Positions 34,080-60,735 of a stretch of 64,000 bases of DNA are shown here, in pieces. A program made the position numbers and the translations under genes. Positions within the stretch are counted from its first letter, which is position 1, and the number at the start of each line of letters is the position of its first letter. The stretch covers positions 186,001 through 250,000 of the forward strand of contig JAUTCR010000005.1 of assembly GCA_030673895.1 (NCBI GenBank), written 5' to 3'. Below the pieces are notes generated by a model, which was not told the origin of the DNA, did not search any database, and saw nothing but the letters and a program-made list of their open reading frames with translations. Source of the stretch: Verrucomicrobiota bacterium JB023. GTDB lineage: Bacteria; Verrucomicrobiota; Verrucomicrobiia; Verrucomicrobiales; Akkermansiaceae.

Positions 34080-35420
34080 ATGAATATCTCGGTTCAAAAA
34101 CTTCCGAACTGCCAGGCCACTCTCGAAGTTGAAATCCCGGCAGAGGCCGTCAACGGGTTGCGTGAGGACCTCGTCAAGTCTTTCATGAACCAAGCGCGCA
34201 TCCCGGGATATCGCCCGGGAAAGGCTCCGCGCAAACTGATTGAGAAACGTTTCGCAGGTGAAATCAGCGAAGAGCTTGATGGCAGGCTAATGGAACAAGC
34301 TGTCCAGGAAACCATCAAGCAAGAGGATGACCTCAAAATCATTGACATCTCTCGTCCGGACAAACTGCAGCATGAGGCCGATGGCAGCGCCCGCATGTCC
34401 GCCACCCTGATCATTGCTCCAGAATTCACCCTCCCTGAATACAAGGGACTGGATATCGAAATCCCGAAAATGGAGGTGACCGACGAGTTGGTTGACCGCG
34501 AACTCGACAATCTCCGCCGTCGTCAGGCGACTTATGAAGACTTAGATGATCGAGCGGTTGAAGAGGGCGACATCATCGTCATCAGCCACACCGCGACCAT
34601 CAATGGCCAGGATCCCGCTGAAGTGGCCGGTCAAGCCGTTGGCGAACTCGCCGAGACATCCGATTATTGGATGAAGGTCGAGGAAAACACGTTCTTACCG
34701 GGCTTCTGCCCGCAGCTGGTTGGCGCCAATGTCGGCGAGACCCGCGAGGTCAAGGTGACCCTGCCCAGCGAAGGCCCAATCGAATCCTTGCACGGTCAAG
34801 AGCTGGTCTGCCAAGTGACCGTCCAGGGCATCAAGGATGAAATCCTTCCCGATGATGACGCCCTCGTCCAAGCCTTGATGCCCGGAGGGAGCATGGACGA
34901 CTTGGTCGAAATCATTCAGAACCAGATGCTCCAGCAACTGCAGCGTGAGAAAGAGCAACTGAAAGAGAGCAAGCTGCTTGAGCAAATCAACAACGCGGTT
35001 GATTTCGAGCTGCCAGACGAATTTGTCCAGTCGGAGACGCAAGGTCAGGCAGATCAGATTGTCGAGAACGCCCTCCGGCAGGGTGCTTCCGAAGAAGAGA
35101 TTGCTGCTCGCGAAGAGGAGATCTTCAAGTCGGCAGGCGACCGGGCTCGCAATAACCTGAAGACCCAGTTCCTTCTCGCCGAGATCGCGGCGGCTGAAAA
35201 TCTTAAGGCGAACGACCAGGAGATCATTCAGCATATCGAATTCTTGGCTCGCCAAGCCAATAAGCCCGTGAAGAGCTACACCCAGAAGCTCGTCCGGGAA
35301 GGCAAAGTCGAGTCCATCCGTCACCGTCTGATGATCAGTAAGACCATTGACTTCCTGCTGGAGAGCGCGAACGTCACTGAAGTTGAACCAAGCAAAGATG
35401 AATCTGAATCAGCAGAGTGA
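34080..35420 (+). CDS. tig: Trigger factor, ribosome-associated chaperone/PPIase
   Basis: The 446-residue protein has the ribosome-binding signature in [18 protein letters not shown]. It has a PPIase-like FKBP domain ([38 protein letters not shown]) and a long helical C-terminal chaperone domain. The start is the ATG at 34080. A weak hairpin (34053-34059 with 34065-34071) lies just ahead of it, and there is no obvious Shine-Dalgarno sequence. It is first in a tig-clpP-clpX array, an arrangement shared with many bacteria, which links co-translational folding with degradation. Confidence 0.97.
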
Positions 35421-35421
35421 A

Positions 35422-36063
35422 ATGACCCCTCCTCAAAACAACTATTACCCTATCCCCCACGTCATCGAGCAAGATGGCCAGGGAGAGCGTGGGTATGACA
35501 TCTACTCCCGTCTTCTCAAGGATCGCATCATCTTCATCGGAACCGGTATCGATGACAACGTGGCGAACGCGGTCATCGCCCAGATGCTCTTCCTCCAGAT
35601 GCAGGATCCCAAAAAGGATATCCACATCTACATCAATTCTCCCGGCGGCTCCGTCACAGCCGGTTTGGCCATCTATGACACCATGCAGTTCCTCACCTGC
35701 GATGTGAACACCTACTGCATCGGGATTGCGGCCTCCATGGGTGCCGTCCTCCTGACAGCCGGGACGAAAGGCAAGCGCTTCTGCCTGCCGAACTCCCACG
35801 TCATGATTCACCAGGTCTCCGGTGGAGCTCAAGGCACCGCAGCCGATGTGGAGCGAACCATCGGCTTCATGTTCAACCTCAAGAAGCGCTTGAACAAGAT
35901 CCTCTCCGACCACACCGGACAAACGGTGGAGAAGGTCGAGATTGATGCCGACCGCGACAACTACATGTCCGGGGAAGAGGCCGCGGCCTACGGCTTGGTG
36001 GACAAGGTCCTCGAGAATCGCGCCGAGCACCCCAATCTGGCAGCCGATTCGAAGGAAAAATAA
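35422..36063 (+). CDS. clpP: ATP-dependent Clp protease proteolytic subunit
   Basis: ClpP forms the double-heptamer peptidase that degrades substrates unfolded by ClpX. The 213-residue product contains [40 protein letters not shown], the catalytic Ser in [14 protein letters not shown], the His in [11 protein letters not shown], and the Asp in [19 protein letters not shown]. Two in-frame ATGs are possible: 35422, one base after the tig stop, or 35398, inside tig. Both lack a strong Shine-Dalgarno; I chose the former. A stable hairpin follows the stop. Confidence 0.96.
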
Positions 36064-49708: not shown

Positions 49709-50863
49709 TCACTCTGCCGACCTTGCAGATGCACGGGCGCGCAATTGGCGGCCCAGCTCCTCCGCTTGCTCTTCCGTAAGGCCGAGATGCCTCGCGTATT
49801 CCCGCCAACGACCCTCACCCCACGCATCAGTAGAATGCTCATTAGGATCGAGCAACAAGAGATAGTCTAACCGTTGCTCTTCGGTGGGAGCCGCATCCAG
49901 AATCTCTTTCCAAGACCGACTCGCTTCCAAGACCTCCTTTAGATGCTCGCGCGGTATCTGCTCGGTCACTTGAAGAGCGAGTTCCATGGTCTCCTGCTGC
50001 CCCCACTCTTGCGCGAATTCTCTTAGAAGTCCTCCCCAACGCATGATCTCTCCCTGAGCCAATCGCGCCGTCACATGTTCCAATGCCGCTTGAGGCTCCT
50101 GCCGCGCCCAGCCCTGCAAAAGGTTAACAGAGAGATGGCGACCGTGGGTATCGATTCGCTCCAATTCGGGAGCCAAGCGAAATAGCTCTTCGTAATCAAA
50201 ATCCTCCGGCAATCGCAAGTTCATATACATTCCTCCTCCCCATCCGTTTTCTTCGATCGTGGACTGGTAAGGCAGTCGATTGAGAAGATTAGCAAATTCA
50301 GTCGGATTCTCCTTAGCCACTTTAGTCAGGGCCGCATCCCAATGCTCGGCATCGAAATCGGCCAAAGCGCGGATGGTTACACGCTCAATCTCACAGTAGA
50401 GGCGAAGGGCTTGGAGAGAATCCGCTGCTCCCAAGTCCAGTTTCCCCAATTGATCGACGACTGCGAGCAAGGCCGCCTCGCGCCGTTTGTCATCTTCTTG
50501 CCCCCGAGCCCAGGCAATGCAGCCATCCTGATTGCGCTGCAACCATTCACCGACAACCGTCTGAAACCGAACAGCCTGCTCAGAACCCATCCCGCCCCAC
50601 ATATCATCTAATAGAGCCTCCAAGGCGCTGACTAACTCATCATCGGTCAAGTCCTGTGCAACCTCGGCCACATCTCCCTTAGCGAAGCGCAAGAGCCACC
50701 GCTCGGAATTGATATGAGCAGATTGTTGACTCCTTGCCTGACCGGGGTGTCGATCGCTCTTGCGCGGAACGACCTCCACGAGTTGTTCGTCATTCGACTT
50801 CAGGGACCACCCCAAAAGAAAAGAGACAAGGACAACGCCAACACCAAATACTTCCGCTCTCAT
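49709..50863 (-). CDS. Membrane-anchored helical protein, tandem paralogue 2
   Basis: The 384-residue protein has an N-terminal anchor (MRAEVFGVGVVLVSFLLGW). It shares a clear block with the upstream gene: AEVAQDLTDDELVSALEALL, DDMWGGMGSEQAVRFQTVVG, EWLQRNQDGCIAWARGQEDD and KRREAALLAVVDQLGKLD. The remainder is helical with TPR/HEAT-like units (GWARQEPQAALEHVTARLAQ), loosely like the 'WA..DP' repeats of the 7556-8923 protein. The C-terminus is less similar between the two paralogues. The ATG at 50863 lies one base after the paralogue's stop. Function is unknown. Confidence 0.72.
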   Translation of the reverse strand: MRAEVFGVGVVLVSFLLGWSLKSNDEQLVEVVPRKSDRHPGQARSQQSAHINSERWLLRFAKGDVAEVAQDLTDDELVSALEALLDDMWGGMGSEQAVRFQTVVGEWLQRNQDGCIAWARGQEDDKRREAALLAVVDQLGKLDLGAADSLQALRLYCEIERVTIRALADFDAEHWDAALTKVAKENPTEFANLLNRLPYQSTIEENGWGGGMYMNLRLPEDFDYEELFRLAPELERIDTHGRHLSVNLLQGWARQEPQAALEHVTARLAQGEIMRWGGLLREFAQEWGQQETMELALQVTEQIPREHLKEVLEASRSWKEILDAAPTEEQRLDYLLLLDPNEHSTDAWGEGRWREYARHLGLTEEQAEELGRQLRARASARSAE

Positions 50864-50864
50864 T

Positions 50865-52001
50865 TCACTCAATGACTCTTCCTTGTCGCGCTTGCAGCTC
50901 CGCCGTGGTCTCCTCCAAATCCCACCCTGCATGTGAGGCATACTCCCGCCAAGTATCGCCGAAGGGGTCCTTGATACCGGAGAAATCCCAGCGGGAAAGT
51001 TGGCTCAAGTAGTGTAGCCGCGTCTCCTTGTCCGGAACCGAATCCAAGATCTCCTTCCAGCGATAGCTTGAAGCCAAGGCTGCCGGGATTTTTTTGGCAG
51101 GAAGAGAAGCAAGAAGCTCCGCGGCTTGTGAATAGACGAGCTCTGCTCCCCCGCTGTTTTCCATCTGCCTCAAGACGGTCCCCCACTTGACCACCTGCCC
51201 TGCTCGGAAGCTTTCCTCAACAAACTGCCAACTGGCGTTAACATCCCGCTTCGCCCATTCCTCCAAAATCGCAACCTCCATGTGAGGTTGCGGAATATCT
51301 GCGCGGACCGAATCAGCGGAATGACCGAGAAAACCGGTGAAGTCAAAGCCCTCAGGGACATCGAATTCAACGAGATTGGATGCCTCAAACCCGGAACGCT
51401 CATAGGAGGGAGCCTCGGGGAAGCGTTGAAGAAGCACGGCCAGCTCACGAGGTTGACTCACAGCCATTTCTAGAATTGCGGCCTTCCAATTCTCGGTCTG
51501 GAAGTGACAAAGAAGATCGAGGGTGATCCTTTCGATTTCGCAATAGAGATGGATCGCCTTCACAGGGTCCGATTGCCCGAGTTGGTCAATCACTGCAAGG
51601 AGAGCGGCTTCCCTCCGTCTCTCGTCACCCTGACCCAACGCCCAAGAGATGCAGCCGCTCTCGTCGCGTTGCAGCCACTCACCAGCAACAGCCCGAAACC
51701 GTTCCGCGTCGTGGAGTCCCATCCCTCCCCACATTTCGCCGAGCATCGCCTCCAAGGTTTGAACAAGCTGCTCATCGGATAGCTCCTTCGCAACCTCGGC
51801 GGCCTCGCCCCCCTCAAACAGCGAAAGGTCATGCTCAGCCCTTGCCTGACCAGACGGGAATTCGGCAGCTGACGTCGAAGACGGCTCGCGGCTTAGTGGG
51901 GAAACCTCCACAATGCGCTCACGTCGCGGGCCTAATCCCCAACCTAAGAGGAACGCGAGCACTGCCGCCACTGTCACCGGCACAGGGGAAAAGGCTTTCA
52001 C
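50865..52001 (-). CDS. Membrane-anchored helical protein, tandem paralogue 1
   Basis: The 378-residue protein starts at GTG 52001 with an anchor (VTVAAVLAFLLGWGLG). It carries the same block as its neighbour: AAEVAKELSDEQLVQTLEAM, GEMWGGMGLHDAERFRAVAG, EWLQRDESGCISWALGQGDE and RRREAALLAVIDQLGQSD, then LYCEIERITLDLL. Length, topology and order are the same, so the pair arose by tandem duplication followed by divergence. Both seem slightly richer in A+T than neighbouring genes, judged by eye. No function can be given. Confidence 0.72.
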   Translation of the reverse strand: MKAFSPVPVTVAAVLAFLLGWGLGPRRERIVEVSPLSREPSSTSAAEFPSGQARAEHDLSLFEGGEAAEVAKELSDEQLVQTLEAMLGEMWGGMGLHDAERFRAVAGEWLQRDESGCISWALGQGDERRREAALLAVIDQLGQSDPVKAIHLYCEIERITLDLLCHFQTENWKAAILEMAVSQPRELAVLLQRFPEAPSYERSGFEASNLVEFDVPEGFDFTGFLGHSADSVRADIPQPHMEVAILEEWAKRDVNASWQFVEESFRAGQVVKWGTVLRQMENSGGAELVYSQAAELLASLPAKKIPAALASSYRWKEILDSVPDKETRLHYLSQLSRWDFSGIKDPFGDTWREYASHAGWDLEETTAELQARQGRVIE

Positions 52002-52295: not shown

Positions 52296-53558
52296 ATGAA
52301 AACGAAATCACTCTGTTCCTACACCGCCCTGCTCGCACTTGGCATCAGCCCGCTGATCGCCGAGGCGCCGAAAAACAACCCCGCGCCTGAGAAAGCTGAG
52401 AAAGCTGAGAAAGCTGAGAAGGCTGAGAAGGCCAAGCCGAAGAAGCCCAAAGCGGCAAATAGTGCTGAAGGGAAAATGGAGAAAGAGAAGGCCCGCCTCG
52501 CGCTTGAGAACGCGCTGACCTCCGAGCGATCCAAGAAAGAACTGGCCGAGCTTCGCGCCGAGGTTGCGCGCTTGAAGCTGGAGAAGGAGATTCTTGCGGA
52601 AACGCTTTCTCTTGCAGAATTGAAACAAAAGGAAGCGGCTCTCGAGCGGAACGCGGACACGATGGAGACCTTCGAACAGATGAAAAGCGAAGTCGCCATC
52701 GCCAAGGCTGAAGCCGAGATGGCGACTGCCAAACTCAAGACCGTGCAAGCAGAGCGCGCGCTGGAGATTGCCGAAGTCGAGTCGGAAATGAAAGCCTTCG
52801 ACGTCGCGCGGAAGCGGGAGGCATATGCCGAAGCGAATCCAGTCTATCTCGAGGACCCTCTGACTGAGGACGGCACCCTCGTCATCTCGGATCGCCGCAT
52901 TTCACTGAATGGCCCCATCTCCTACCAGACGGCGGAATACATCTCGGAGCGCATCAACTACTTCAACAACAAGAATAACGAGCATCCCATCTTCATCGTT
53001 ATCGACACCTCACCCGGTGGCTCGGTGATGGCCGGGATGCACATCCTCAAGGCAATGGAAGGCTCGGAGGCTCCTGTCTATGTCGTGGTGAAGGCCTTTG
53101 CCGCTTCCATGGCAGCCACCATCACGACTTTGGCCGAGCGCTCCTTCGCGTATCCCAATGCCCTTATCCTCCATCACCAGATTCTCTCCGGCACCTTCGG
53201 TAACCTGACCGAGACTCGGGAGCACACGCGCGAGATGGAAGAGTGGTGGCGCCGCCTTGCCACCCCAATCGCGAAGAAGATGGGAGTCTCCCGCGCGGAA
53301 TTCATCAAGACCATGTATGAGAAGCGCTCTAGTGGCGACTGGACGGAGTTCGCCGACAAGGCCGTCAAGCTCAAGTGGGTCGACCATGTGGTCGAGAACA
53401 TTCGGGAAACAGCATTGCTGAAGAGCCCTGACGTCCGCTCGAGTTCCTCTCCCTCCGCAGAGGCCGACGTTCCCGAGGGCGAAGTCCTCTTCCGCCTCAA
53501 TCCCAAGGACCTGCTCTACATGTACGACCCGACCGGTCAGTACCCAGTAGGCCGTTAA
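52296..53558 (+). CDS. Exported ClpP-fold serine protease with coiled-coil N-terminal half
   Basis: The 420-residue protein has a signal peptide (SYTALLALGISPLIAEA), then a Lys/Glu/Ala repeat (EKA x5) and a long coiled coil (about residues 55-180, ELAELRAEVARLKLEKEIL and onward). A ClpP/crotonase-fold domain follows, with FIVIDTSPGGSVMAGMHILK, FAASMAATITTLAERSF, NALILHHQILSG and GDWTEFADKAVKLKWVDHV. Ser271, His294 and Asp348 align with the ClpP triad. Cytosolic ClpP has neither a signal peptide nor a coiled coil. The layout is closer to periplasmic or membrane ClpP-like proteases (NfeD/SppA-like). The C-terminus ends with YMYDPTGQYPVGR. Terminator at 53609. Confidence 0.82.
   Translation: MKTKSLCSYTALLALGISPLIAEAPKNNPAPEKAEKAEKAEKAEKAKPKKPKAANSAEGKMEKEKARLALENALTSERSKKELAELRAEVARLKLEKEILAETLSLAELKQKEAALERNADTMETFEQMKSEVAIAKAEAEMATAKLKTVQAERALEIAEVESEMKAFDVARKREAYAEANPVYLEDPLTEDGTLVISDRRISLNGPISYQTAEYISERINYFNNKNNEHPIFIVIDTSPGGSVMAGMHILKAMEGSEAPVYVVVKAFAASMAATITTLAERSFAYPNALILHHQILSGTFGNLTETREHTREMEEWWRRLATPIAKKMGVSRAEFIKTMYEKRSSGDWTEFADKAVKLKWVDHVVENIRETALLKSPDVRSSSSPSAEADVPEGEVLFRLNPKDLLYMYDPTGQYPVGR
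52389..52433 (+). repeat. 9-bp tandem repeat, five copies
   Basis: Five direct copies of GAGAAAGCT or GAGAAGGCx encode (Glu-Lys-Ala)5 in the linker of the exported ClpP-like protein. The first three copies are identical, which suggests recent slippage expansion. Confidence 0.9.
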
Positions 53559-53608
53559 GACCGCGCCAAAAAGCCGGTCCGTCTGAGTCAAGCGGACAGC
53601 ATTTCATC

Positions 53609-56606: not shown

Positions 56607-57583
56607 GCGAACTGACCTTGGGTCAGGCAGTGGATGCCGCCTCCCTCGAGCCCCAATACCGAACAGTCGAAGCCGACCACCTCGTGGGAGGGGAACTCCG
56701 CTCGGATGATCTCGAGCGCTTTTTCATCAGTCGACTTTCCGTATTGGGGCACGATGACGGCCCCATTCACGATGAGGAAGTTCGCGTAGCTGCCCGAGAC
56801 TCCCTCCGTCACCTCACCGGCATCAGGCAGATAACGAACCTCGAGACCGGCCGCTTCGAGCCGTTCTGCATTCTCGCCGAGCGTCTCCGTGCTCTTCTCC
56901 ACCGCGAGAACGTGCCCGGGCTTGGTGAACCGGGCCACCATGTCGGCATGCCCGTCCGTATCGTCATGAGGCAGCCCTCCCTTCAGCCACAGCACCTTAT
57001 CGACGCCCAGAGACTCGATTAGGAGCTGCTCGACTTTTCCTTTCTTAAGATTCGGGTTCCGGTTCGGATTGAGCAAGACGGACTCCGTGGTCATGCACAA
57101 TCCCTCGCCATCCACTTCGATCGCGCCGCCCTCACAGACGAGAGGCACTTGGAAACGCCGCAGTCCCCAGCTCTCGGCCATGCGTCGGGCCACTTGGGAA
57201 TCGAGCTGATGGCTGAACTTGCCACCCCAGCCATTATAGATCCAGTCGATCACCGCAGGAGTTCCGGTGTCCTTATGCTTAAGGAAGGTGGCCCCGTGAT
57301 CCCGGCACCAGACATCATCCGTACTGATCCCGAAGATCTGATAATTCTGCGCACCTGCGGCAGCAAATTGCTCTTCCACATGGGCCCGTTGATTCTCCCT
57401 CACGCAGAGCCGGACCTCCGCAAAGCGGCTGATGAGAGCGACCAGATCGGCAAAGACGCTTTCCAGCTCCTGACGCGGCACACTTTCCCACAATTGGTCC
57501 GCTACCGGCCAGCTCATCCAGATGCCATCCACCCGGGCCCATTCGGGCGGCGTGCGGTAGCCTGCTTTCTTCGCGCTCTCCAT
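56603..57583 (-). CDS. aguA: Agmatine deiminase
   Basis: AguA hydrolyses agmatine to N-carbamoylputrescine in polyamine synthesis. The 326-residue protein of the peptidyl-arginine-deiminase fold shows GISTDDVWCRDHGATFL, VCEGGAIEVDGEGLCMTTES, LPHDDTDGHADMVARF, EGVSGSYANFLIVNGAVIVP and the catalytic Cys in GLEGGGIHCLTQGQ at the C-terminus. All expected active-site Asp, His and Cys residues are visible. The partner N-carbamoylputrescine amidase (aguB), often adjacent, is absent. It is divergent from the DegP-like gene. Confidence 0.95.
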   Translation of the reverse strand: MESAKKAGYRTPPEWARVDGIWMSWPVADQLWESVPRQELESVFADLVALISRFAEVRLCVRENQRAHVEEQFAAAGAQNYQIFGISTDDVWCRDHGATFLKHKDTGTPAVIDWIYNGWGGKFSHQLDSQVARRMAESWGLRRFQVPLVCEGGAIEVDGEGLCMTTESVLLNPNRNPNLKKGKVEQLLIESLGVDKVLWLKGGLPHDDTDGHADMVARFTKPGHVLAVEKSTETLGENAERLEAAGLEVRYLPDAGEVTEGVSGSYANFLIVNGAVIVPQYGKSTDEKALEIIRAEFPSHEVVGFDCSVLGLEGGGIHCLTQGQFA

Positions 57584-57691
57584 AAGACTTCCTTTCGACT
57601 GATAACGGGAAGTTTTCTAGCAAAAAACCATTTTGCTCCTCGCTTGCCGGATAGCTTGCCACCTTGCGAATTCCGAGTAGTTTCAATTTCA

Positions 57692-59179
57692 ATGCGTTTG
57701 ATACCCGCCTTTTTCTTTTTCGCGTCCCTGATTTTTTGTTCCGCGGAGACCACGACAGCCAATTCAACGCCCCCACCAGCCGCAGCCACTGAGGCAAACA
57801 TTTTTGACTCCGTGCTGCGCATCGAAGTCGCCACCCAAGTGCCAGATTACCGGACCCCGTGGGCCCCGGGGGGATTCTCGGGTGGCAGAGGAACAGGCTT
57901 CCTGATTGGCCCTAATCAAATTCTCACCAATGCTCATGTCGTCGCCAATGCGCGCCGCGTCTTGGTGACCATGCGCAATTCGTCGCGAAAGCTGCCCGCG
58001 CAGGTGAAGTATGTGGCTCACGATTGCGACCTCGCCCTGCTCGCGCTGGACGATCCCAGCCCACTGGAGGGCTTGCTCCAGCTACCGATTGGCGAGATGC
58101 CCGCCTTGGATTCGGAGGTCCGGGCCATCGGCTATCCCGTTGGAGGAGACCGCCTCTCTGTCACCCGAGGAATCGTCTCTCGTATCGACTTCCAAGCCTA
58201 CTCTCATTCCCGCGTGGACTCCCACCTCATCATCCAAGTTGACGCGGCCATCAACCCCGGCAACTCGGGAGGCCCAGCCATCCAGGATGACAAAGTCATC
58301 GGCGTCGCCTTCCAAGGGCTCCGCCAAGCGGACAACACCGGTTACATCATCCCCACCCCGGTCATCCGCCGCTTCCTCAAGGATGTGGAAGACGGACGCT
58401 ACGACCAATACGTCGACCTCGGTCTCTCCCACTTCTCACTCTTCAATCCCGCCATGCGGAAGGCCCTTGGCCTACCGGATGACGACAAGGGTGTCCTAGT
58501 GACCTCCGTGCTCCCGACCGGAGCCTGCGACGGGATCATCGAAGTGAACGATGTCCTCCTTTCCATTGACGGAAAAAGTATCGATTCGGCCGGCAACATT
58601 GAGGTCGATGGCGAACTCATCAACCTCAACGAGGTCGTCGAACGCAAATTCGCGGGAGACAAAATCGCCCTTGAGTATCTGCGTGGTGACGAACGAAAAG
58701 AGGCTGAAGTGACCCTGGTCACCGTGCCCGCGACCCGCATTTACGGCGTCCGCTATGGTGAGAGGCCCCGCTACGTTTTCTACGCCGGCCTTGTCCTTCA
58801 GCCACTTAATCTGAACGTGATGTCAGCGCATCGCATCGATAATCTCAACGTCCGTAAGCTCTACGCGGACTACCTGGACGAAGGGATTTTCCAAGAACGC
58901 CCCGATCTGGTCACCATCACCCGCATCGAGATGGACGAGCTCACGAGCGAGCTCAATGAGTTCAAGAAGACCGTCATCAATACCATCAACGGAACTCCGG
59001 TCCGCGATTTGCAGCATGCCTACGACCTCCTTTATGCCGAGGACGCCCCGGAATTCACGGTCATTGAATGTGAAGGAGTCTCCCGTCCGCTGGTCATTCC
59101 ATCGGCCAAGGCCAAGCAAGCCAACGAGCGATTGATGCAAATCAACAACATCCAATCCACCCACTATCTCGGCAAGTAA
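57692..59179 (+). CDS. DegP/HtrA-like exported serine protease with PDZ domain
   Basis: The 495-residue protein has a signal peptide (PAFFFFASLIFCSA) and a trypsin-like domain with an intact triad: His82 in ILTNAHVV, Asp113 in HDCDLALLAL, Ser192 in INPGNSGGPAI. A PDZ domain follows (about 250-345, KGVLVTSVLPTGACDGIIEV, NDVLLSIDGKSI). The C-terminal part (RRIYGVRYGERPRYVFYAGL-like, ending in a second degenerate PDZ-like region) resembles the plant Deg9 / PDZ-extended type. These proteases act in envelope protein quality control. The ATG at 57692 gives the signal peptide. A paralogue with a degenerate triad follows after 20 bases. Confidence 0.88.
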   Translation: MRLIPAFFFFASLIFCSAETTTANSTPPPAAATEANIFDSVLRIEVATQVPDYRTPWAPGGFSGGRGTGFLIGPNQILTNAHVVANARRVLVTMRNSSRKLPAQVKYVAHDCDLALLALDDPSPLEGLLQLPIGEMPALDSEVRAIGYPVGGDRLSVTRGIVSRIDFQAYSHSRVDSHLIIQVDAAINPGNSGGPAIQDDKVIGVAFQGLRQADNTGYIIPTPVIRRFLKDVEDGRYDQYVDLGLSHFSLFNPAMRKALGLPDDDKGVLVTSVLPTGACDGIIEVNDVLLSIDGKSIDSAGNIEVDGELINLNEVVERKFAGDKIALEYLRGDERKEAEVTLVTVPATRIYGVRYGERPRYVFYAGLVLQPLNLNVMSAHRIDNLNVRKLYADYLDEGIFQERPDLVTITRIEMDELTSELNEFKKTVINTINGTPVRDLQHAYDLLYAEDAPEFTVIECEGVSRPLVIPSAKAKQANERLMQINNIQSTHYLGK

Positions 59180-59199: not shown

Positions 59200-60735
59200 A
59201 TGAAATTCACCACCATCCTAATCGCCACCTCGACGCTCCTGCACGGCCACGGCGTGGACCAATTCTCGAGTAGTCAGCTCGAGGAGCCGACTCCCGAGGT
59301 CACCTCGGTTCCAGTGACCTCGGAGGACGAGGCACCTCCGCTCATCCGGATCAATTCGACCGTGCAGTCCTTCAATGCAGGTCAGCCCTGGCAGCGGAAT
59401 TCATCCAAGAACCGTCGGGGCACTGGGATTCTGATCAGTCCCACCCAAGTGCTCACGGTTGCCGAGCTGGTCGCCGACCAGACCTTCCTTGAGTTCGAGG
59501 CCCCGGACAGTTCGGACCGCGTCCGGGCCACGGTTTCGATCATCGATTATAAGAGTAACCTAGCCATTCTTGAACCAGCCAACACCGACGACCTCGGTTT
59601 CCTTGGCGAGCTCTCGCCCATTGAGCTGGGCGAACCCGCTGCGATTGGCGACGACGCCATCGTATGGCAGTTGGAATACAACGGAACGCCCCTCAAAACC
59701 AAAGGTCTCATCCGGGGAGTCGATACGGTGTCCACCTTCCTGCCCGGCTTTTCCTTTCTCTGCTACAATATCAAGGGCTCAATGCAGTCTTCCTCCTCGT
59801 CCTTCAGCCTGCCTGTAACGCGGGGTGGCAAGCTCCTGGGCCTGCTGACGGCTTATGATTCCGATGACCAGCTCTCGACGGTTATCGCTCCCGAGATCAT
59901 TGCCACCTTCCTGGAAGATGTTGGCGATGGCCACTATGACGGCTTTCCTTCCCTTGGCGTCGCCAGCGAACCCACGGAGGACTCCTCCTTCCGCGATTAC
60001 CTCAAGCTCGGCGATGAGATGGGGGGGGTGTATCTCTCGCGAATCAAGCCCGGCATGGGCGCGGACAAGGCGGGCTTGCAAGTCGGCGATGTCCTGACAG
60101 CCATTGACGGCTCCCCCATTGACCGCCGGGGCTATTACGAGCACCCGTCCTACGGCATCCTCCCTTGGACCGTCCTCATCCGGGGCGAGAAATTCGCTGG
60201 CGATCAAGTCCGGCTCGAGTATCTCCGCGACGGTGAAGTCAAGGAAGTCACCGCCACCCTGACCGTCGCGGAAGATCCCCTGGTTCCCCGTCATATTCAT
60301 GATTCGGCGCCCCCCTTCCTCATCAAGGGCGGCCTTGTCTTTCAGGAGCTCTCCAGCGCCTATCTACGGGCCTACGGTGAGAATTGGACCACCCGCGCTC
60401 CCCTCGATCTCATGCACGTCCTCCACAATCAAAAGGACTACGAAGAAGGACGCGAGCGAGTGGTTTTCCTCTCCCGCATCATCCCCAATCCCGCAACCGT
60501 CGGCTACGACTCGGTCAATAGCCAGATCATCACGTCCGCCAATGGGCAAGAAATCAAGGATCTTAAAAGCCTGGCTGACGCACTGGCCAAGGCTCCCGCT
60601 GACGGCATCCACACCATCGGTCTGTCCGATGCTCCGCACACACTCTACCTCGATGCCCAACTTGCTAATCTCGTTGACCAGCAGCTCCTTCAATCGGGTC
60701 TGCCCATGCTGTCCCGCATGAGTGAGGACGAGTGA
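59200..60735 (+). CDS. DegP-like pseudoprotease with PDZ domain
   Basis: The 511-residue protein has the same layout as the preceding protease: signal peptide, trypsin-like fold, PDZ domain (MGGVYLSRIKPGMGADKAGL, QVGDVLTAIDGSPIDRRG) and the same C-terminal extension (FLIKGGLVFQELSSAYLR). Aligned with its neighbour, the His is Glu89 (QVLTVAELVAD), the Asp is Asn120 (YKSNLAILE) and the Ser is about Phe201 in a Ser-rich stretch (QSSSSSFSLPV). All three catalytic positions are lost while the fold and PDZ are kept. I infer a regulatory or chaperone partner of the active protease, co-transcribed with it. Confidence 0.83.
   Translation: MKFTTILIATSTLLHGHGVDQFSSSQLEEPTPEVTSVPVTSEDEAPPLIRINSTVQSFNAGQPWQRNSSKNRRGTGILISPTQVLTVAELVADQTFLEFEAPDSSDRVRATVSIIDYKSNLAILEPANTDDLGFLGELSPIELGEPAAIGDDAIVWQLEYNGTPLKTKGLIRGVDTVSTFLPGFSFLCYNIKGSMQSSSSSFSLPVTRGGKLLGLLTAYDSDDQLSTVIAPEIIATFLEDVGDGHYDGFPSLGVASEPTEDSSFRDYLKLGDEMGGVYLSRIKPGMGADKAGLQVGDVLTAIDGSPIDRRGYYEHPSYGILPWTVLIRGEKFAGDQVRLEYLRDGEVKEVTATLTVAEDPLVPRHIHDSAPPFLIKGGLVFQELSSAYLRAYGENWTTRAPLDLMHVLHNQKDYEEGRERVVFLSRIIPNPATVGYDSVNSQIITSANGQEIKDLKSLADALAKAPADGIHTIGLSDAPHTLYLDAQLANLVDQQLLQSGLPMLSRMSEDE

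Follow-up and report, generated by a model that had tools for sequence, protein, structure and literature searches.

Organization of the locus

The window, a stretch of 64,000 nucleotides from Verrucomicrobiota bacterium JB023 (genus Roseibacillus), contains at 52296-53558 (+) an open reading frame that starts with ATG and encodes 420 amino acids. As orthologues are present in other genomes, it is not a chance reading frame. (Conserved antisense frames on the minus strand over the protease gene, at 53010-53591 and 53174-53506, were taken to be codon-bias artefacts.) The protein is predicted to consist of a signal peptide, a linker, a single long helix, a ClpP-fold peptidase core, and a family-specific C-terminal motif (Table 1). 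This architecture is real and unusual: S14 proteins nearly always have a single domain, and in a survey of 121 proteins the only ones with extra domains were three ClpP-NfeD fusions (PMC2605481).

The first 22 residues have the organization of a signal peptide, with a short n-region (MKTK), a hydrophobic core, and a cleavage region (LIA/AEA). The repeat that follows is exactly (EKA)5 at the protein level, and its coding DNA is a 9-nt tandem repeat. It sits in a segment (residues 23-61) that is disordered in the AF2 model (pLDDT of 33-41), and the linker around it is poorly conserved, with a mean identity of 20% across the family. Both the signal peptide and the (EKA)5 linker had been proposed in the initial annotation, and both hold up; for the former, an export signal is kept family-wide and a negative control is given below. 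At the other end of the protein, the C-terminal motif is 45% identical across the family, is preceded by a linker with 21% identity, and is modelled with low confidence.

The protein is one of just two S14 proteins that a search with PF00574 found in the genome. The other is canonical ClpP: its gene adjoins tig and clpX (frame 35347-36063, with a plausible ATG at 35422), which agrees with the position that had been given for a separate, true clpP.

Table 1. Features of the exported S14 peptidase gene, with their positions in the window
Feature	Position	Strand	Basis
CDS (420 aa) of a predicted exported serine peptidase, family S14 (ClpP)	52296..53558	+	ORF; Pfam CLP_protease 5e-23; orthologues in relatives
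Signal peptide, residues 1-22, type I-like, without lipobox (predicted)	52296..52361	+	n/h/c organization
(EKA)5 low-complexity linker, residues 32-46	52389..52433	+	9-nt direct repeats
Single long helix (stalk), residues 62-178	52479..52829	+	AF2; pLDDT mostly >90
ClpP-fold peptidase core, residues 194-372	52875..53411	+	Pfam 196-367; Foldseek to 6cfd
Val235 at Tyr62 position, ATPase-docking cleft	52998..53000	+	V in 71/72; Y in 6/6 canonical ClpPs compared
Lys266 at Met92 position, ATPase-docking cleft	53091..53093	+	K in 71/72; canonical ClpP M or I
Catalytic Ser271 codon	53106..53108	+	Aligns with E. coli S97; 72/72
Catalytic His294 codon	53175..53177	+	Aligns with E. coli H122; 71/72
Gly347 at ring-ring arginine sensor (E. 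coli R170)	53334..53336	+	G in 72/72; R in 11/11 non-family S14 sequences compared
Catalytic Asp348 codon	53337..53339	+	Aligns with E. coli D171; 72/72
Family-specific C-terminal motif, residues 398-420, consensus LPRLNPKDxYxLYNPDGYYR	53487..53555	+	Two family alignments

A ClpP fold with a conserved catalytic triad

The Pfam family CLP_protease (PF00574) matches residues 196-367 with 82.3 bits (cut-off 20.2, 5e-23), which places the protein in the S14/ClpP superfamily (MEROPS S14). The AF2 model, which is of the monomer and was built from 72 homologues, has a pLDDT of about 95 in most of its core region; Foldseek aligns it to ClpP (6cfd) over 171 columns (E 5.4e-16, TMt 0.80-0.84, rmsd 2.1). 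In a sequence alignment, Ser271, His294, and Asp348 fall at the positions of S97, H122, and D171 of E. coli ClpP. The 72 homologues (44-59% identity) all retain Ser271 and Asp348, and 71 of them retain His294, so the triad is complete in 71/72. The geometry of the triad has indirect support from this alignment and from the match of the fold. An invariant serine and aspartate with a near-invariant histidine would not be expected at this divergence without catalysis, and the complete Ser-His-Asp site of the initial annotation stands.

Relationship to known proteases

The family belongs to the S14 superfamily but is not canonical ClpP. It shares with ClpP the fold, the triad, the SPGGS motif of the oxyanion region, and the Pfam family. 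Unlike ClpP, it has an export signal, a 117-residue helix, and a conserved C-terminal motif, and it has lost the docking cleft and the arginine sensor. No NCBIfam model for ClpP reaches its cut-off (the best score is 67 bits vs. 228), and the scores are far from the level of canonical ClpP equivalogs (52.9 vs. 308.6 bits for TIGR00493 and 65.4 vs. 249 bits for PRK00277). Across the 72 members we found no NCBIfam model dedicated to the family; only general ClpP and prohead-protease models appear. Because no model separates them from ClpP, these proteins are easily annotated as ATP-dependent Clp protease.

A tree of the peptidase domain splits the family from canonical ClpP and from S14 proteins of Neochlamydia, Arcobacter, and phages with UFBoot support of 100. 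A phylogeny against ClpP, SppA, NfeD, and TepA had been suggested as a check. The separation from ClpP is clear from this tree; SppA and NfeD were compared by profile scores.

Four other groups resemble the family in some respects. First, the ClpP-related head-maturation (prohead) proteases of phages (NF045542/phrog_94) are also related to S14 and presumably function without an ATPase, and our protein scores against their profiles much as it does against those of ClpP. In contrast to the family, they are cytoplasmic and virion-bound, they occur together with scaffold or capsid proteins, either fused or paired, and they lie outside the clade in our tree. The protein scores 59.4 bits against NF045542 (cut-off 120 bits), and no phage genes were seen around its gene. 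We rejected a phage origin, as the phage matches over the core region are only weak. Second, SppA (S49) is also an envelope protease with a ClpP-like fold and no ATPase. However, SppA uses Ser-Lys chemistry rather than Ser-His-Asp, and its S49 profile gives only a weak and partial match (27.9 vs. 155 bits). The JB023 genome encodes a separate SppA. Third, the N-terminal protease domain of NfeD1b and the archaeal ClpP-NfeD fusions are likewise ClpP-fold serine proteases, and are membrane-associated. Our protein differs in that it has neither an NfeD domain nor a C-terminal TM region, and it scores below the cut-offs of Pfam NfeD1b_N (18.5 vs. 40 bits) and SDH protease (19.2 vs. 31.3 bits). Fourth, the C-terminal processing proteases Prc/Tsp (S41) are exported and ATP-independent and have a broadly ClpP/crotonase-like fold. 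Unlike our protein, they have a PDZ domain and belong to a different family; Pfam and NCBIfam profile searches gave no PDZ or S41 match to the protein. A secreted PDZ-ClpP-like fusion has been named (PMC12419801). In the open-licence literature that we searched, we found no description of such an exported ClpP of family S14.

Evidence for export

Our signal-peptide test, which searches for a possible start and then for a signal peptide, was passed by 76 of 81 family ORFs, as compared to 8 of 54 neighbouring, cytoplasmic control proteins (MnmA, 6/16; aconitase, 0/15; metallo-beta-lactamase-fold neighbours, 2/23), with a longer start stretch allowed in the family, which somewhat favours it. The start codons of the homologues were picked for hydrophobicity, which biases the count; the control reduces this bias but does not remove it. 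The signal region is just 29% identical across the family, and the type of signal is nonetheless retained. Also, two distant members (L128 and L130) have a lipoprotein signal (LMFAGC) at the same place. The presence of both type I signals and a lipobox at one place within a family argues strongly for an extracytoplasmic site. Overall, export of these proteases is well supported computationally, and they probably work outside the cytoplasm.

Loss of the ATPase-docking cleft and the arginine sensor

In canonical systems, the I/LGF loop of ClpX, ClpA, or ClpC enters an apical hydrophobic pocket of ClpP, whose key residues correspond to Y60, Y62, and F82 of E. coli, and mutants of B. subtilis ClpP at Y62 and F82 lose most casein degradation (PMC11005422). 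The hydrophobic cleft for these IGF/LGF loops (Y60, Y62, F82, M92, and L114) is missing throughout the family. Specifically (in E. coli numbering), Y62 is replaced by V (71/72), F82 by G, S, or A, and M92 by K (71/72, with R in the remaining one); also, Y60 is replaced by F, L114 by Y or F, and L48 by N, D, H, or Q. Given the remodelled cleft, the replacement of the axial loop (see below), and a compartment that is free of ATP, an AAA+ partner is very unlikely.

As a rival explanation, the protein could be a cytoplasmic, accessory ClpP subunit that works with ClpX or ClpA, and the apparent signal peptide could be only a membrane anchor or the result of a mis-called start. In its favour are the S14 domain and the fact that members of S14 usually reside in the cytoplasm and depend on an ATPase. 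However, the docking cleft is gone in all members, the axial N-terminal loops are replaced, the signal-peptide type persists despite the low identity of the region, and some members have a lipobox instead, so we consider a cytoplasmic subunit to be very improbable.

The arginine sensor of canonical ClpP, which acts between the rings, is also absent: the corresponding residue is G347 in all 72 sequences. Human CLPP with the equivalent Arg-to-Ala change forms mainly heptamers (PMC6110781). Since R170 is replaced by glycine in 72/72 members, it is plausible that the exported family would form a single ring. In canonical ClpP, an ordered active site requires two rings. Thus, the loss of the sensor could also mean that activity is low. 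Together with an altered handle, this loss would fit with an exported scaffold or chaperone that is weak or inactive as a protease and that uses the ClpP fold and the helix to oligomerise. But such a protein would not be expected to keep Ser271 and Asp348 invariant and His294 nearly so at 44-59% identity, and we view this explanation as improbable. We favour an active peptidase, and the family-wide loss of both the cleft and the sensor fits with the original suggestion that it works differently from ClpXP and without an ATPase.

A long helix of fixed length

In the AF2 model, residues 62-178 form one uninterrupted helix of 117 residues (pLDDT of about 75-96 over residues 71-178). The spacing from Asn72 to Pro188 is 116 residues in 68 of the 72 members; two others have four more residues and two have large insertions. 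This fixed-length helix occupies the place of the axial N-terminal loops of ClpP, with the joint to the helix replacing the loop. (In a gammaproteobacterial member, L098:1520-3139, the helix has 108 additional residues, so that the stalk is nearly doubled.)

Conserved large hydrophobic residues occur at 3/4 spacing in two parts of the helix (86, 90, 93, 100, and 104; 143, 147, 150, 161, 165, and 168), with extra hydrophobic stripes at 95, 99, and 106 and at 135, 156, and 158. The presence of more than one stripe would suit a bundle of several helices. Single-frequency Fourier tests of hydrophobic periodicity, for the whole helix and for windows of it, did not identify a significant heptad or hendecad repeat. 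The initial annotation called about 125 residues of coiled coil: the long conserved helix is there, with 117 residues, but its heptad register was not detected statistically, so that we infer the coiled coil, which we consider likely.

Distribution and descent

The family occurs in many Verrucomicrobiota and in some Gammaproteobacteria of the Thiotrichales. Of the 289 genomes in our sample of the phylum, 21 were positive in an alignment search; among 58 close relatives, a query with the protein detected the family in about half. Within one Thiotrichales-type order of Gammaproteobacteria, 10 of 63 genomes carry it, including Cocleimonas, Leucothrix, and Thiotrichaceae. These gammaproteobacterial members fall among sequences from Verrucomicrobiales, which is consistent with horizontal transfer. 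Contamination was judged to be an unlikely source because several MAGs of one order carry the gene. Also, the neighbouring genes in L063 and L098, which we take to be uppP, pyrD, folP, lpxB, and a BamD-like lipoprotein, look gammaproteobacterial. Four genomes (G031, G156, G203, and G230) have tandem copies of the exported S14 gene. In genus g3, from the window's own family, the gene is absent from every genome listed, which suggests a lineage-specific loss.

The upstream gene and possible membrane tethering

In 44 of the 68 loci with enough upstream sequence, the gene immediately upstream, on the same strand, encodes an envelope protein of roughly 290 amino acids with TM helices at both ends. 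This gene is often within about 50 bp of the protease gene or overlaps it, and in many loci mnmA lies beyond it in divergent orientation. In the JB023 genome, the two-TM protein is encoded on another contig, still beside mnmA (L132:4883-5695 (-), G000:C72). It is present in nearly all members of the order, and equally so in genomes that lack the protease gene. Because it is widespread without the protease and is not adjacent to it in Roseibacillus, the link is suggestive only, and we did not retain it as an operon partner. SPFAGC is conserved in the two-TM protein, at the first of the TM segments; its model gave no confident fold match in the PDB, and it had no Pfam or NCBIfam match above the cut-off.

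The upstream gene bears on the suggestion that the protease is tethered in the envelope, with its hydrophobic N-terminal segment (or, in some relatives, a lipid) in the membrane and the helix, about 17 nm long, setting the distance of the ClpP domain across the periplasm. The near-constant length of the helix (117 residues × 0.15 nm = about 17.5 nm), the lipobox in L128 and L130, and the frequent two-TM neighbour would all favour tethering. On the other hand, there is no lipobox in our protein or in the 76 members that we examined on genome contigs, their signal peptides look cleavable, and the neighbour is just as common without the protease. We consider tethering to be possible but rather unlikely, and the "tethered" of the initial annotation goes beyond what the sequence of the JB023 protein shows; the lipobox is confined to two distant relatives.

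Proposed mechanism

We propose instead that the protein is an exported, ATPase-independent S14 peptidase, which is a prediction that we consider probable, and that it probably forms a ring that bears helical stalks. The protein would first be exported by Sec. The catalytic domains might then assemble as a ring, perhaps a single heptamer, through the ring interface that is usual for S14. The helices would exit from the apical face around the pore and associate as a stalk or bundle, where they could stand in for the AAA+ ring, whether in gating, as a spacer, or for docking. Periplasmic substrates, either unfolded or peptides, would enter passively and be cleaved by the Ser271 triad. Membrane tethering could be an added feature. 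That the genome keeps a canonical clpP-clpX pair separately also supports this proposal.

A more specific version is a periplasmic ClpP ring in which an axial bundle of long helices replaces the ATPase as the gate and substrate guide, and which spread horizontally from Verrucomicrobiota to Thiotrichales. We advance this whole scenario tentatively, as a possibility that is somewhat doubtful. ClpP is the textbook example of a compartmentalised protease that is ATP-dependent and is cytoplasmic or organellar. If the specific version is true, then a ring gated by a helix bundle would be a self-compartmentalising protease that was rebuilt for a compartment without ATP. More broadly, a widespread, exported S14 family with an intact triad and without the docking cleft shows how a self-compartmentalising protease could be re-used without ATP, and the family makes the gating and assembly of such rings without an unfoldase testable.

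Other nearby genes

At many loci from Verrucomicrobiales (L060-L092), the gene directly downstream of the protease gene encodes a protein with a metallo-beta-lactamase fold and perhaps an HTH domain at the N terminus; the two genes often overlap by a few bases. In the window, a tandem pair of genes that look paralogous (49709-50941 and 50865-52001, both on the minus strand) lies upstream of the protease gene and opposite to it. The products carry TM segments at the N terminus, and Pfam gave no significant match for them. Finally, 57149-59179 and 59200-60735 (+) encode two tandem trypsin/PDZ proteins (HtrA/Deg-like) that, by our reading, are exported. The first retains TNAHVV and GNSGGP, while the second has TVAELV and no GNSGG motif, and looks like a catalytically dead paralogue.
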